From: Bacteroidales bacterium
GTDB lineage: Bacteria > Bacteroidota > Bacteroidia > Bacteroidales > UBA932
Assembly: GCA_017428725.1 (NCBI GenBank)
Contig: JAFRQH010000012.1
Span: forward strand, 1 to 64,000
Length of the DNA: 64,000 nt
Reading direction: 5' to 3'
Below, piece after piece: positions 45,136 through 51,024 of this stretch. The translations under genes and the position numbers were made by a program. How positions within the stretch are numbered: position 1 is the first letter of the stretch; every line of letters starts with the position of its first letter. Under the pieces are notes generated by a model. The model ran no database searches. It was given only the letters and a program-made list of their open reading frames with translations, and was not told where the DNA came from.

Positions 45136-45165
45136 TTTGATTTCGTCCGAAAAACCGTATATTTG
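45136..45165 (+). promoter_or_regulatory. Promoter of the metal-efflux operon
   Basis: TTTG at 45136-45139, 18 bases, TATATTTG at 45158-45165, then only 10 bases to the ATG at 45176. Confidence 0.7.
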
Positions 45166-45175
45166 TAGCTCTTTT

Positions 45176-45550
45176 ATGAAATTGTCCGGGCCCATCAGGA
45201 ATGTGTTGACGGCGGTGTTGACCGTGCTGCTGTCGCTGGGGTATGTCAGTTCGACGATGTGCTGGCATACACACGTCATCGGAGGGCAGGTCATCGTCCA
45301 TTCGCACCTCTTCTGGCGCGGCCACGCCGCCGCGAATTCCGACGGCGGCCACACCCCCGGACAGCTGCAGACCATCCAGGAAACCAACGAACTGACATTC
45401 ACGGACTCCATCCTGCCCGAATTCCATCTGGAGCGGATGGAGGTCCTGACCGATATTTTCTTCACTCCGGCGCTCTGCGTGCAGCAGAAGCCGGTCCTTC
45501 GCGCGCGCTCCCTGCGGGCGCCTCCCGTTTTGCCGTGTATCCCCGCCTGA
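45176..45550 (+). CDS. Small His-rich membrane-anchored protein heading the Czc operon
   Basis: A 124-residue protein. Residues 8-26 form one hydrophobic segment, and residues 28-59 hold a candidate metal site: Met28, Cys29, His31, His33, His42, His44, His50 and His59, including two HxH pairs. A more hydrophilic stretch with TIQETNELTFTDSILPEF and a basic, Pro-rich end follow. It is the first gene of the operon, 43 bases ahead of czcB, with its own promoter. I recall similar short proteins before Czc/Cus genes in other Bacteroidales but know no studied member. A periplasmic metal sensor, chaperone or pump accessory is inferred. The start at 45176 is preferred over 45137, which would lie upstream of the promoter box. 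Confidence 0.8.
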   Translation: MKLSGPIRNVLTAVLTVLLSLGYVSSTMCWHTHVIGGQVIVHSHLFWRGHAAANSDGGHTPGQLQTIQETNELTFTDSILPEFHLERMEVLTDIFFTPALCVQQKPVLRARSLRAPPVLPCIPA

Positions 45551-45593
45551 TCCAGATTCTTCAGTTACACCGCAAAACACCCCTTTTTATCCA

Positions 45594-46700
45594 ATGAAAC
45601 ACATATTGGCTGCACTGGCAATCGCATTGCCCGTGCTCGCAGGATGCCGTCAGGGCGAAGCCGCCTCCGCAACGAAGGATTTCACCTTCCAGGGAGACGA
45701 AGTGACCGTCCGTCCCGATTCTCCCGTGGCCCGGGAGCTGAAAGTCGAGCCCGTGGGGGCGTCGGCTTATGAATCCGCCTTCCGTACGGTGGGCACCGTC
45801 AGACCGGTGGCCGGCCGTGTAGCAGAAGTGGCCGTGCCTTTCGCCGGCCGCATCACGCGCACGATGGTGCGCCTCGGAGACTACGTCCGTGCCGGACAGC
45901 CGCTCTTCGAGATGAGCTCGCCCGACTTCTACGCGGCCGTCAAAGAGTACTTCGAGAACCAGCTCGCCGACAAGAATGTCGCCGCCAACCTGAAGCGCCG
46001 CGAGGCGATGCACCAGGCCGGCATCCTGTCCGAGCGGGAGTTTGAGGAGGCGCGCGCCGAGGCCGAAAACGCCCGCAACGCCTACCAGATGTCCCGGATG
46101 GCCCTGAGCGTCTATCACGTGGACCTGGACCGCTTGCAGATGGGCCGGCCGATCACAGTCACGGCGCCGATCGGGGGCCGGGTGGTGGCGTGCGACCTCA
46201 CGCAGGGCCAGTATGTCAAGGAGGACGCCGATGCGCTGGCCACGATCGCAGAACTGTCCCGCGTGTGGGTGTCCGCCCAGGTCAAGGAGGCGCAGGTCGG
46301 CCGGATCGAGGCCGGCCGGACGCGCGCGCAGGTCCTGCGCGACAGCGCGCCGGACAGTCCCGTCGAGGGACGTATCGTCTATGTGGGCGAGGTCCTGGAC
46401 GAGCAGACCCGCTCCACGGAAGTGATGCTGGAGTGCGACAATGCCGGCCGCCTGCTCAAGCCCGGCATGTTCGTCTCCGTGGCGTTCACCACCCCGCAGA
46501 CTTCCGCGCTGCTGATCCCCGCTACGGCTGTCTTCCAGGGCGAGAACACGAAATACGTCTACGTGGAGCAGGAGGCACTGCATTTCGTGCGCCGGCCGGT
46601 GCGCGTGGAGAGCGCAGGGGCCGATCAGGTCTGCGTGCTGTCCGGTCTGTCGGAAGGGGAGAGGATCATCGCTTCCGGAGGCATCTATCTGAGCGAGTAG
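45594..46700 (+). CDS. czcB: RND metal-efflux periplasmic adaptor (CzcB/CusB family)
   Basis: A 368-residue membrane-fusion protein with a lipobox (LAGC, Cys about 17). Layout: beta-barrel and lipoyl halves (GRVAEVAVPFAGRITRTMVRLGDYVRAGQPLFEM near 75-110; ITVTAPIGGRVV near 185), alpha-hairpin (110-175), and a membrane-proximal domain. It bridges the inner-membrane pump and the outer-membrane channel. It lacks an extra N-terminal metal-binding domain. The pump gene follows after three bases. Confidence 0.92.
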   Translation: MKHILAALAIALPVLAGCRQGEAASATKDFTFQGDEVTVRPDSPVARELKVEPVGASAYESAFRTVGTVRPVAGRVAEVAVPFAGRITRTMVRLGDYVRAGQPLFEMSSPDFYAAVKEYFENQLADKNVAANLKRREAMHQAGILSEREFEEARAEAENARNAYQMSRMALSVYHVDLDRLQMGRPITVTAPIGGRVVACDLTQGQYVKEDADALATIAELSRVWVSAQVKEAQVGRIEAGRTRAQVLRDSAPDSPVEGRIVYVGEVLDEQTRSTEVMLECDNAGRLLKPGMFVSVAFTTPQTSALLIPATAVFQGENTKYVYVEQEALHFVRRPVRVESAGADQVCVLSGLSEGERIIASGGIYLSE

Positions 46701-46703
46701 GCC

Positions 46704-49700
46704 ATGAACAAACTGATCAAACTGGCCCTGAAACGGCGCTGGCTGGTGGCCGTGGCGTTTCTGGTGATCTCTGCCTTCGGCTTCTACAGCTGGACGCAGC
46801 TCGCGATCGATGCCTATCCCGACATCGCCGACGTGACCGTCCAGGTGGTGACCCAGGTCCCGGGCCTGGCCGCCGAGGAAATCGAGCAGCAGATCACGAT
46901 CCCGCTGGAGCGGGCGCTCAACGGCATCCCCTCGCTGAGTATGATGCGCAGCAAGAACACGTTCGGGCTCTCCATCATCGTGCTGGTCTTCGACGACGGC
47001 ACGGAGGACTACTGGGCCCGCCAGCGCGTACGTGAGTGCATCGGAGACGTGGATCTCCCGTACGAAGCCGTCCCGGAGCTGAACCCGCTGACCTCCCCGA
47101 CGGGGGAGATCTACCGCTATATCCTTGAGAGTGACAACCATACCCTGCGTGAGCTGACAGACCTCAACCACTGGGTCATCATCCCGCGGCTCCAGCAGAT
47201 CCCGGGTGTGGCCGCCGTCAGTAACTTCGGCGGCATCACCACCCAGTACCAGCTGGAGATCGATCCGGACAAGCTGCTCAAATACGGGCTGTCCCTGGAC
47301 GACGTACAGGCTGCGCTGGAGTCCAACAACGCCAACAGCGGAGGCAGCATGCTCTCCAGCGGCGATGTCAGCTACGTCGTTCGCGGCGTCGGTCTGGTTG
47401 GCGGCCTGGAGGACCTTGGGCGCGTGGTCGTGAAGTCCGTGGACGGGGCCCCGGTCTATCTCTCCGACCTGGGCGAACTCAAGTACGGCAACCTCGAGCG
47501 CAAGGGCGTGCTGGGCTTCGTCGATGACGAACACGCGATCGAGGACGGCGTGGAGGGCATCGTGCAGATGCTCCGCTACCAGAATCCTTCGCAGGTACTG
47601 GACAGGGTCCACGCCGCCGTGGACGAACTCAACGACGACATCCTGCCCAAGGGCGTGCGGATCCGGCCCTTCATGGACCGCACCGAGCTGGTCGGCACGA
47701 CCCTCAGCACGGTGGAGCATACCCTGTTCTTCGGGATGCTGCTGGTCATCGGCATCCTGCTGATCTTCCTGGGCAGTCCGCTCAGTGCGCTGATCGTGGC
47801 GGCGACGATCCCCATCTCGCTGCTGATCGCCTTCATCCTGATGCACCTGACGAACATCCCCGCCAACCTGTTGTCCCTGGGCGCCATCGATTTCGGCATC
47901 CTGGTGGACGGGGCGATCGTGATGACGGAGACGCTCCTGAAACTGCGGGAGGAGGCGCCGGACAAACCGCTGGACAGCAAGAAGGTGATCCGGCGGATCG
48001 CGGATGTGGCGAAACCGATCTTCTTCTCCACGATCATCATCATCGTGGCGTATATGCCGCTGTTCACCTTCGAGCGGATCGAGAAGAAACTCTTCACGCC
48101 GATGGCCTACACGGTGGGCTACGCCCTGCTGGGCGCCCTGTCCGTGGCCCTGATCCTCATCCCCGGCCTGGCATATTCCCTCTACCGCAAGCCGCAGAAG
48201 GTCTACCGCAACAAGGTGATGGAGTCCCTGACGGAGAAGTACAAACACAGCACCGCGCGGGTGATGGACCGCCCGAAGGGCATCTTTGCCGGGATCGCGG
48301 TAATCCTCGTGCTCGTGGGAATCCTGGCCGCCACCGTGGGCAAGGACTTCCTGCCGGCGCTCGACGAGGGAGGTATCTGGATCCAGATCCAGACCCCGCC
48401 GGGCATCTCGCTCGCCAAGTCCACGCAGATGGCCAGCGACCTGCGTGAGCGGATGAAGGCGTTCGACGAAGTGACCTACGTGATGACGCAGGTGGGCCGC
48501 GACGACGAGGGGGCCGAGGCGTTCACCTCCTCCCACATCGAGTGCTGCATCGGCCTGAAGCCTTATTCGAAGTGGAAATTCGGCAAGACCAAGGCAGACC
48601 TGGTGGAGGAGATGGCGGCGGCCATCGAGACGATGCCCGGCTACCACGCCGGTTTCTCCCAGCCGATCATCGATATGGTGATGGACCAGATTGCCGGCGC
48701 CCACAGCGACCTGGCGGTCAAGGTCTACGGCGACGACCTCGTTGAGGCGCGCCGCATCGCCGAGCAGGTGATGGCGGTGGTCTCCGACATCCCGGGCGCC
48801 ACGGACGTCATCATCGACCAGGAGCCGCCGCTGCCGCAGCTCAAGATCACGGCGGACCGCGAGAAGATCGCCCAGTACGGGCTCAACGTCTCCGACATCG
48901 CCAACCTCGTGGAGGTGGCCATCGGCGGCAAGGCCATCTCCCAGGTGTACATCGGGAGCAAGGTCTACGACGTGACCTGCCGTTTCACGGAGGAATCCCG
49001 CGACACGCCGGAGAAGATCGCCTCGCTGATGCTGATGACCCCGGACGGCGTGCCGGTCCCGCTCTCGGCGGTGGCCGAGGTGCAGTCGGTGCTCGGGGCC
49101 AGTTTCATTGCACGCGAGATGAACAAGCGGCACCTGACGGTGCGCCTGAACCTGCGCGGCCGCGACCTGACCTCCTACCTGGACGAGGCGCGGCGGCGTA
49201 TCGCGGAGGAGGTCAGCTATGACCACACGGCCTTCCAGGTGCGCTGGGACGGTCAGTTCGAGAACCAGCGCCGCGCCTACAGCCGCCTGGCGGTCATCAT
49301 CCCCTTCGTGCTCGCCATCATGTTCCTGCTGCTGTTCGGCGCTTTCGGCAAGTTCCGCCAGGCGGGCCTGCTGATCTCGCTGCTGCCGCTCGCGCTGCTG
49401 GGCGGCCTGCTGGCGCTCAACGTGCGCGGGATGACCTTCAACGTCTCCTCCGCCGTCGGATTCATCGCCCTGTTCGGCCTGACGATCCAGAACGGCGTCA
49501 TCATGATCTCCCACATCAACAGCCTGCGCCGGGACGGCACGCCGCTGCGCGCCGCCGTCGTGGAGGGCGCGGCGCACCGGCTGCGTCCCGTGCTGATGAC
49601 GGCCACGGTGGCCATCCTTGGCCTGCTGCCGGCCTCGCTCGCCACGGGCATCGGCTCGGACGTGCAGCGCCCGCTCGCCACGGTCATCGTGTACGGCCTG

Positions 49701-49808
49701 TTCTTCTCCACGATCATTACCTTGTATATCCTCCCGACGCTCTATTACCTGATGGAGCGGCGCCACGAGACCCAAAGCGAAAAGTCCGATGAAGAAGTGT
49801 ATCTATAG
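46704..49808 (+). CDS. czcA: RND heavy-metal efflux pump (CzcA type)
   Basis: A 1034-residue inner-membrane RND pump of the HME family with the usual 12 segments and two large periplasmic loops. The fourth segment reads DFGILVDGAIVMTE near residue 396, matching the DFGxxxDGA pattern linked to divalent cations (Co, Zn, Cd) and not the pattern of Cu/Ag CusA pumps. Export of Zn, Co or Cd is therefore favoured. Length is normal (about 1040). Its last 20 bases overlap the outer-membrane channel gene. Confidence 0.93.
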   Translation: MNKLIKLALKRRWLVAVAFLVISAFGFYSWTQLAIDAYPDIADVTVQVVTQVPGLAAEEIEQQITIPLERALNGIPSLSMMRSKNTFGLSIIVLVFDDGTEDYWARQRVRECIGDVDLPYEAVPELNPLTSPTGEIYRYILESDNHTLRELTDLNHWVIIPRLQQIPGVAAVSNFGGITTQYQLEIDPDKLLKYGLSLDDVQAALESNNANSGGSMLSSGDVSYVVRGVGLVGGLEDLGRVVVKSVDGAPVYLSDLGELKYGNLERKGVLGFVDDEHAIEDGVEGIVQMLRYQNPSQVLDRVHAAVDELNDDILPKGVRIRPFMDRTELVGTTLSTVEHTLFFGMLLVIGILLIFLGSPLSALIVAATIPISLLIAFILMHLTNIPANLLSLGAIDFGILVDGAIVMTETLLKLREEAPDKPLDSKKVIRRIADVAKPIFFSTIIIIVAYMPLFTFERIEKKLFTPMAYTVGYALLGALSVALILIPGLAYSLYRKPQKVYRNKVMESLTEKYKHSTARVMDRPKGIFAGIAVILVLVGILAATVGKDFLPALDEGGIWIQIQTPPGISLAKSTQMASDLRERMKAFDEVTYVMTQVGRDDEGAEAFTSSHIECCIGLKPYSKWKFGKTKADLVEEMAAAIETMPGYHAGFSQPIIDMVMDQIAGAHSDLAVKVYGDDLVEARRIAEQVMAVVSDIPGATDVIIDQEPPLPQLKITADREKIAQYGLNVSDIANLVEVAIGGKAISQVYIGSKVYDVTCRFTEESRDTPEKIASLMLMTPDGVPVPLSAVAEVQSVLGASFIAREMNKRHLTVRLNLRGRDLTSYLDEARRRIAEEVSYDHTAFQVRWDGQFENQRRAYSRLAVIIPFVLAIMFLLLFGAFGKFRQAGLLISLLPLALLGGLLALNVRGMTFNVSSAVGFIALFGLTIQNGVIMISHINSLRRDGTPLRAAVVEGAAHRLRPVLMTATVAILGLLPASLATGIGSDVQRPLATVIVYGLFFSTIITLYILPTLYYLMERRHETQSEKSDEEVYL

Positions 49809-51024
49809 TCTCTGCCTGCTCCTGATGCCCCTGGTGCTGGGGGCGCAGACGCTCGATTACCGGCAGTTCCTGCAGGCCGTCGCCCGCGACAACGCCACGC
49901 TGCTGGCGGAGAAGTACAACGTGGAGATCGCCGCCGCCAACCTCCAGGCGGCGCGGGTCTTCAACGACCCGGAGCTGTCCGTCGCCTATACGGACAACGA
50001 GGACAACACCCTGATGATGGGCCGCAGCTACGAGGCGGGCCTGTCCTACGGCTTCTCGCTCGGCGGGGTGCGCCGGGCGCGGATCGGTGTGGCGGCCACG
50101 GAGCAGGAGCTGACGGAGGCCGCCCTGGCGGACTTCTTCCGGACGCTGCGCGAGGAGGCCACCGTGGCCTGGAGCGAGGCCTGGGAGGCCCGCGAGACGG
50201 AGCGCGCGCTGTGCTCGTCCTACGAGACGATGCAGCGGATCGCCGCCGCGGACAGCCTGCGCGCCGCCCTCGGCGACATCCGCCGCTCCGATGCGGTCCA
50301 GTCCGCGCTGGAGGCGCTGACCCTGAAAGGGGAGTGGCTGCAGGCGCGGGCCGACTACCGGAATGCCCTGGCCGACCTGTCGCTGCTGGCCGGCGGGCAG
50401 CCCCTCGGCGACATCGCGGAGGACCCGATGCCGCTGATGGTCCCGGATGTCGCTCCGGGCGAGCTGATGGACATCGCCGAGCGGAACCGCGCCGACCTCA
50501 AGGCCGCGGAGCTGTCCCGGACCCTCTCGCAGAAGAACCTGGCGCTGGTCCGCGCCTCGCGCGCGATGGAACTGGGCCTCGAACTGGGCTACGCCCACAA
50601 TACGGAAGTGCGCAACGAGATCGCCCCGGCGCCCGCCTTCAACGCCATCACCTTCGGAGTGACCATCCCGCTGAAGTTCTCCTCGCTCAACCGCGGGGAG
50701 CGCGCCGCTGCGCAAGCCGCGGTGAGCCAGTCCGAGCGCTACCTGGACGCGGCGCGGCAGACCGTGCGGACCGAGGTCCTGCAGGCCTGGAACGCCTGGC
50801 AGGCGGCTTGCGAGGTAGCGGAGCATTACTCCGACAAGATCGTCTCCGAGGCGAAGGAGATCCTGGAAGGGATCGAGTTCACATACTCCCACGGAGACGC
50901 CTCGCTGGTCGAAATGCTCACGGCGGTGCGGACCTACAACGACGTGGCGCTGTCGGCCGCGCAGGCACAGGCGGCCCGGCTGGCCGCCGCGGCGCGCCTG
51001 CAGGCCGCCCTGGGGCTGGAGTAG
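49789..51024 (+). CDS. czcC: TolC-family outer-membrane channel of the metal pump (CzcC)
   Basis: A 411-residue TolC-like protein with a cleavable signal (LGAQ, about residue 18) and two long coiled OEP repeats (about 30-200 and 220-405). Ends with ARLQAALGLE. It completes the tripartite pump. The gene starts 20 bases inside the czcA 3' end. No terminator was seen after it; the next gene has its own promoter box. Confidence 0.91.
   Translation: MKKCIYSLCLLLMPLVLGAQTLDYRQFLQAVARDNATLLAEKYNVEIAAANLQAARVFNDPELSVAYTDNEDNTLMMGRSYEAGLSYGFSLGGVRRARIGVAATEQELTEAALADFFRTLREEATVAWSEAWEARETERALCSSYETMQRIAAADSLRAALGDIRRSDAVQSALEALTLKGEWLQARADYRNALADLSLLAGGQPLGDIAEDPMPLMVPDVAPGELMDIAERNRADLKAAELSRTLSQKNLALVRASRAMELGLELGYAHNTEVRNEIAPAPAFNAITFGVTIPLKFSSLNRGERAAAQAAVSQSERYLDAARQTVRTEVLQAWNAWQAACEVAEHYSDKIVSEAKEILEGIEFTYSHGDASLVEMLTAVRTYNDVALSAAQAQAARLAAAARLQAALGLE

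Follow-up and report, generated by a model that had tools for sequence, protein, structure and literature searches.

What is a small open reading frame of no recognized family doing at the head of a heavy-metal efflux operon? The question is raised by a 124-aa ORF in the window, as we call the whole 64,000-nt stretch of DNA analysed here. It belongs to an uncultured Bacteroidales genome of 2.63 Mb in 40 contigs, whose nearest named relatives are metagenome genomes, mostly from ruminant rumen or omasum. The original prediction saw the product as a periplasmic metal sensor, loader or pump accessory. From the sequence comparisons presented below, we consider it very probable that the ORF is an upstream ORF (uORF) encoding an arrest peptide that acts in cis.

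The locus and its relatives

The ORF (45176..45550, + strand) starts with ATG and ends with a stop codon at 45548-45550, leaving a gap of 43 nt to the czcB start codon at 45594. The coordinates thus bear out that it heads the operon, at the distance from czcB originally given. The downstream genes encode an RND periplasmic adaptor, CzcB (45594..46700, +; PF16576, TIGR01730), which we propose as the first regulated product, a heavy-metal RND permease, CzcA (46704..49808, +; TIGR00914), and a TolC-type outer membrane factor, CzcC (49789..51024, +; PF02321). By bit score, the permease lies nearest to ZneA, a zinc pump (1233 bits, against 529 bits for CusA), and in the alignment it keeps the DFG...DGA stretch, which we take to be a mark of divalent-metal pumps. 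Within the genus, ZneA-like czcA genes (71-100% identity) occur in 5 of 81 genomes, with the uORF directly upstream in all five; by coordinates, none of 17 more distant RND matches (30-34%) has an adjacent uORF. No family for the 124-aa ORF was found in Pfam or NCBIfam, and a plasmid search with it gave zero matches. Its PDB matches, to fructosyl peptide oxidases only, were at chance level and none was convincing.

The promoter noticed 10 nt upstream could be verified. As predicted from the sequence (45136..45165, +), it consists of TTTG at -33 (45136-45139), 18 nt and TATATTTG at -7 (45158-45165), an arrangement that presumably represents the Bacteroidota promoter consensus, and its last base (45165) lies 10 nt ahead of the uORF ATG. 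Between -80 and +25, TAnnTTTG is present in 72 of 92 loci, as compared with 3 control windows (control total not given) placed 300 nt further upstream; the window locus has both promoter elements. The predicted mRNA leader ahead of the uORF, between 45165 and 45176 (+), would thus be a few nucleotides only. In many relatives the promoter element stops 5-20 nt ahead of the uORF start, which suggests that the mRNA may be nearly leaderless.

Within the family, a single-sequence search matched 52 of 299 genomes. A profile search across the order (E <= 0.001), with each species represented by a single genome and larger groups sampled evenly, matched 127 of 393; this recurrence of the ORF, histidines included, goes beyond chance. 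From the fetched loci, a subset of all matches, we kept 114 distinct Bacteroidales proteins. Three are not intact, one being cut by a contig end (L021) and two being fusions (L064 and L074), which leaves 111 intact relatives, the window's own protein included. Some analyses refer to earlier-stage sets: 81 rows for the first swap test, 89 for the R[AG]PP background, 55 for fold energy and 81 for the tree.

Downstream of the 111 intact relatives lies czcB in 36 cases, a gene for a TonB-dependent receptor in 74 and another gene in one (L114, where the next gene encodes 429 aa and has no Pfam or NCBIfam match). Since the family stands before receptors in 74 of 111 cases, its members are not pump subunits; the idea of a loader or pump accessory agrees poorly with the data, whereas that of a periplasmic metal sensor fits. 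Of the two findings that the original prediction would have counted against itself, homologues lacking metal genes apply in part, since a receptor and not a pump follows these 74; unconserved histidines do not, five being invariant. These receptors probably import, and their PDB and NCBIfam matches are generic, naming no ligand. ZIP zinc transporter genes (PF02535) lie beside two receptor-linked uORFs (L015, 1929-2738; L017, 584-1390), a hint only that the receptors may handle zinc.

Both contexts can occur in one genome, as in G402, which has one uORF before a pump (L110) and another before a receptor (L128). A tree of 81 rows implies that the context switched nine times between pump and receptor. 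Starred branches force three or more of these switches, and one (L081) lies within a well-supported pump clade. As the alignment has few columns and many forks are open, we take from this tree only that there was more than one switch. In the two fusions (L064 and L074, the latter identical to L006), the uORF is joined in frame to the end of czcC, and the C-terminal RxPP motif described below was lost together with the deleted pump operon. These fusions represent either natural loss of the entire circuit or assembly errors.

Invariant histidines, a linker of kept length and the RxPP motif

The AlphaFold2 model of the uORF product is poor overall (mean pLDDT 57). It has one N-terminal hydrophobic helix, a putative signal or anchor helix (residues 5-27; 45188..45256, +; pLDDT 84-87 in residues 1-20) and the candidate for the cleavable Sec signal peptide that the published filters for CutF-like uORFs ask for. 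This is followed by a predicted beta-hairpin with the pattern HxH-x8-HSH (residues 28-45; 45257..45310, +), its strands at residues 28-35 and 38-45 (pLDDT about 60-66), and then by disorder, with low confidence past residue 76. All of the potential ligands originally pointed out are present after the single hydrophobic segment: six histidines (31, 33, 42, 44, 50 and 59), C29 and M28, within 32 residues (28-59). Their conservation is uneven. The four hairpin histidines H31, H33, H42 and H44 and the fifth, H59 (45350..45352, +), are conserved as His in all 111 intact relatives, a count inflated, like that of RxPP below, in that the search models themselves contain the motifs. S43 is Ser in 100 of the 111. 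H50, on the other hand, is His in 23, M28 is Met in 33 and C29 is Cys in 7, and no conserved Cys is found among the invariant columns of the family. Judging from the HxH alternation, the four hairpin histidines would share one face. A site made of histidines only is better suited to Zn, Co or Ni than to Cu(I).

The linker that follows (residues 60-113; 45353..45514, +; pLDDT <50 from residue 76) has kept its length but not its sequence. The distance between H59 and the Arg of RxPP is 52-57 residues, with 54-56 in 104 of 111 relatives and exactly 55 in 58, whereas the spacing between H44 and H59 is looser (8-22 residues). Mean column entropy over residues 61-112, the least conserved part, is 3.3 bits, as compared with 0.49 for the RxPP columns. 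The ribosome tunnel holds about 35 residues and the translocon about 20; with a spacing of about 55, the His site would be located at the periplasmic exit just as the ribosome arrives at RxPP. A spacing argument of this tunnel and translocon type was made by the authors of the CutF study for 45 residues (PMC9973294). Neither the H59-RxPP spacing nor a second hydrophobic segment (overlapping distributions, medians 1.33 vs 1.75) separates pump-linked from receptor-linked members.

The uORF product ends in ...SLRAPPVLPCIPA, which contains Arg-Ala-Pro-Pro with PP 7 residues from the end. We propose the RAPP codons (45515..45526, +) as a ribosome-arrest site. All 111 intact relatives have RxPP (72 RAPP, 32 RGPP, 3 RDPP, 2 RPPP and 2 RSPP), 1 to 11 residues before the stop, and R[AG]PP occurs nowhere in 686 other proteins of the same loci (274,122 residues). 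RDPP replaces RAPP or RGPP in three receptor-linked members of family f81 (L129, L134 and L135). In 12 of the 30 loci from the single-sequence search, the match to the window protein lay entirely upstream of residue 110; 10 of these proteins nevertheless end in RxPP, which argues that the motif was not merely selected by the search. Of the other two, L006 is a deletion fusion and L021 runs into a contig end. Arrest in vitro and structures of stalled ribosomes have been reported for RAPP peptides, both RAPP and RGPP arrest ribosomes, and the RAPP of CruR stalls them in vitro; the two motifs are reported to be depleted from proteomes but enriched in small exported uORFs, at their ends (PMC10951233, PMC12992588).

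A predicted hairpin ahead of the next gene

The mRNA is predicted to form a hairpin (z -5.4) whose 5' arm (45527..45539, +) begins immediately 3' of the RAPP codons, before the uORF stop, and whose 3' arm (45566..45578, +) stops 15 nt short of the czcB ATG. The original prediction overlooked the RAPP motif and this hairpin, which hold most of the information. Most of the relatives compared fold into the same layout with differing arm sequences. Where at least 7 pairs begin in the first 20 nt, the only loci counted here, the 5' arm starts 0-7 nt after RxPP in 20 of 20 czcB-linked loci and 0-11 nt after it in 27 of 27 receptor-linked ones. For stretches of up to 160 nt (26 of 81 loci are longer and were left out), fold energy lies more than 2 SD below that of shuffled sequences (z below -2) in 20 of 25 czcB-linked and 19 of 30 receptor-linked loci.

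The swap test paired each 5' arm with its own 3' region and with that of every other locus. It covered 109 loci, that is the 111 without L114 and without one czcB-linked row that has no usable start. The arms native to a locus score among the top 5% of pairs in 22 of 35 czcB-linked and 23 of 74 receptor-linked cases, in total 45 of 109 where about 5 are expected (binomial p 3e-31, kinship ignored). Outside the top 5% are 13 of 35 and 51 of 74, respectively, or 64 of 109 overall. In the first run, the arms of the window locus itself ranked 6 of 80, just below the top 5%. By this comparison of sequences the hairpin arms change together. A stem-loop over the start region of the next gene is nonetheless present in the window but not in every relative, and a few czcB-linked loci show no hairpin (L023, L110 and L136). 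The czcB gaps measure 43-87 nt in 30 of 35 loci, most of them with a defined hairpin.

A proposed arrest switch, its precedents and its rivals

The joint conservation of a signal helix, a His beta-hairpin, a linker of fixed length, RxPP and an mRNA hairpin points to a regulatory uORF built from these parts. The parts themselves, their conservation and spacing, the gene context and the co-variation of the arms are all read from sequence; stalling, the identity of the metal, periplasmic sensing and polarity are what we infer. The target would be translation of the ZneA-type czcBAC pump. Translation would begin near the 5' end of the mRNA, the N-terminal helix directing the nascent chain to the Sec translocon. 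Once the ribosome is at RAPP, about 55 residues would span tunnel and translocon, so that the His beta-hairpin and H59 would lie just within the periplasm. There a divalent metal, most likely Zn(II), would alter the pull on the chain and so set how long the ribosome dwells at RAPP. A stalled ribosome would mask the 5' arm, leaving the 3' arm single-stranded and allowing czcB to be translated; without a stall, the hairpin would re-form and keep czcBAC low.

The steps of this proposal differ in strength. We lean slightly towards zinc as the metal sensed. That metal prolongs the stall at the pump uORF we regard as evenly poised: if a stall switches the pump on, metal must prolong it, as reported for CutF, whereas for an importer metal should relieve it, as in the logic of CruR. 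As one cassette with one hairpin layout stands before an exporter and before importers, either the direction of the response is unsettled or the metal sensed is not what the receptors import. Nor is periplasmic sensing a given, since the signal peptide of CruR is dispensable for regulation and sensing of cytoplasmic copper has been proposed there (PMC9426467).

Several elements of the scheme have precedents. CruR (DUF2946, PF11162; bp2923 of Bordetella pertussis) is likewise a small exported uORF with a metal-binding motif, a C-terminal RAPP at fixed spacing and a TonB-dependent transporter downstream, but by the published account it has CXXC, a 45-residue spacing, copper as its metal and Rho acting over a 162-bp gap (PMC9426467). 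The family described here has invariant histidines, about 55 residues and a short gap with a hairpin. PF11162 was matched by none of 28 family members, and a profile comparison with four Bacteroidota DUF2946 proteins aligned the N-terminal hydrophobic part only (probability 83.5), so that we do not accept homology. Four DUF2946-type small proteins from other Bacteroidota (L143, L144, L145 and L146) combine His/Cys-rich segments with a RAPP or RGPP close to the stop; two of them fall below the Pfam cut-off.

CutF of Rhodobacter capsulatus shares an exported nascent sensor, a C-terminal PP, a stem-loop over the next start and a detoxification gene turned on by metal; it uses CxxxC for Cu, and a strong stall could not be demonstrated, according to the same report (PMC9973294). 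By the published filters for CutF-like uORFs, the window ORF is shorter than 150 aa (124), has PP within its last 15 residues (7 from the end) and has a same-strand gene within 1000 nt (43), but its family lacks the Cys-based Cu motif CxxxC. List D of that study includes many Bacteroidota, with OEP, ACR_tran and HlyD_D23 neighbours; CutF-like uORFs are tallied there before CusC/CzcC, CusA/CzcA and CusB/CzcB genes, and the His-only clusters it describes (14 and 17) adjoin HupE/UreJ, not RND pumps (PMC9973294). The ORF also corresponds to the RAPP-type arrest peptides in being small, with an N-terminal signal and a C-terminal RAPP-like motif, upstream of a putative target gene. ApdA, ApdP and the RQH family, whose stalling mechanism is solved, share the N-terminal localization signal and RAPP or RGPP near the stop; they control protein-localization genes, and the accounts drawn on here describe no metal sensor among them (PMC10951233, PMC10987492).

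A different kind of precedent is CzcI of Cupriavidus metallidurans, the small periplasmic product of the first gene of czcICBA, which is reported to quench the pump (PMC10127602). Together with the CutF-like uORFs before Czc genes, it contradicts the original statement that a gene of this kind is absent from all studied Czc systems. A CzcI-like role, with a mature protein that binds metal and restrains or feeds CzcCBA and a C-terminal motif that is incidental, would agree with the position of the ORF and with its invariant histidines. We find it very improbable, given that a receptor rather than a pump follows in 74 of 111 relatives, that the region past H59 is unconserved and modelled as mostly disordered, that RxPP is invariant at the stop, and that the adjoining co-varying hairpin calls for a role in cis. 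CzcI, moreover, is reported to act as a protein on the pump and is said to have no C-terminal proline motif (PMC9973294). Still less credible is a SecM-like secretion monitor, with translocation sensed through the signal helix and a different function for the histidines. RAPP-like arrest peptides are reported to be common upstream of secA, secDF and yidC (PMC10987492), but what lies downstream of 110 of the 111 relatives is czcB or a gene for a TonB-dependent receptor rather than a sec or yidC gene, L114 being the exception, and five histidines are invariant.

The other two alternatives keep the arrest peptide and change what it does. The hairpin might be an intrinsic terminator, making the uORF a transcription attenuator rather than a translation block. 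It is strong and directly 3' of the RxPP codons, and in the window the 3' arm is followed by CACCCCTTTTTA; however, a four-T run within 10 nt past the paired region occurs in 1 of 20 czcB-linked and 2 of 27 receptor-linked loci, by a rough count with tails measured from the inner pair, and we judge a terminator improbable. The logic of CruR is a more serious contender, if still an unlikely one: the stall would be relieved by metal, and Rho (or the hairpin), no longer kept away by a stalled ribosome, would shut the operon; the pump would then be produced when metal is low, or have a different function. This is a variant of the preferred reading, and the probabilities of the two overlap. CruR has RAPP, precedes a TonB-dependent receptor and is relieved of arrest by copper (PMC9426467), and such logic is sensible for the receptors that 74 of 111 relatives precede. 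It would, however, have an exporter made when its metal is scarce, and the GC-rich 162-bp gap between cruR and bfrG (PMC9426467) differs from the czcB gaps of 43-87 nt in 30 of 35 loci, most with a hairpin.

Metal-sensing uORFs with proline motifs (CruR, CutF) and RAPP uORFs before TonB receptors are thus already known. A 2025 survey of RAPP and RGPP uORFs in the EMBO Journal names classes ahead of TonB-receptor and copper genes; the copper-related ones were not found in Bacteroidota, and the word 'efflux' is absent from its main text (PMC12992588). In the CruR authors' own account, riboswitches for Cu or Zn are not described. Supplementary tables aside, where they may figure unnamed, we found in the literature no His-only RxPP uORF family before ZneA-type pumps and no zinc-sensing arrest peptide. 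Such a family before ZneA-type pumps therefore appears to be undescribed, although it may belong to the CutF-like list D.

Returning to the arrest-peptide reading, its most complete form is tentative and falls somewhat short of probable: a zinc-sensing switch in which four or five histidines of the nascent chain form a site that is read where the chain leaves the translocon and that determines the dwell at RxPP; its cassette would repeatedly have come to control a zinc exporter and outer-membrane importers, with either the polarity flipped or one gene class assumed wrongly. Whether one sensor-plus-arrest cassette governs both exporter and importers, sometimes in the same genome (as in G402), is a testable question. 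The uORF reading accounts for a conserved small ORF that lacks a Pfam or NCBIfam family. If it is true, arrest-peptide sensing would extend from copper to (probably) zinc, and Bacteroidales, a dominant group in gut and rumen, would sense a periplasmic divalent metal post-transcriptionally, without a DNA-binding regulator.
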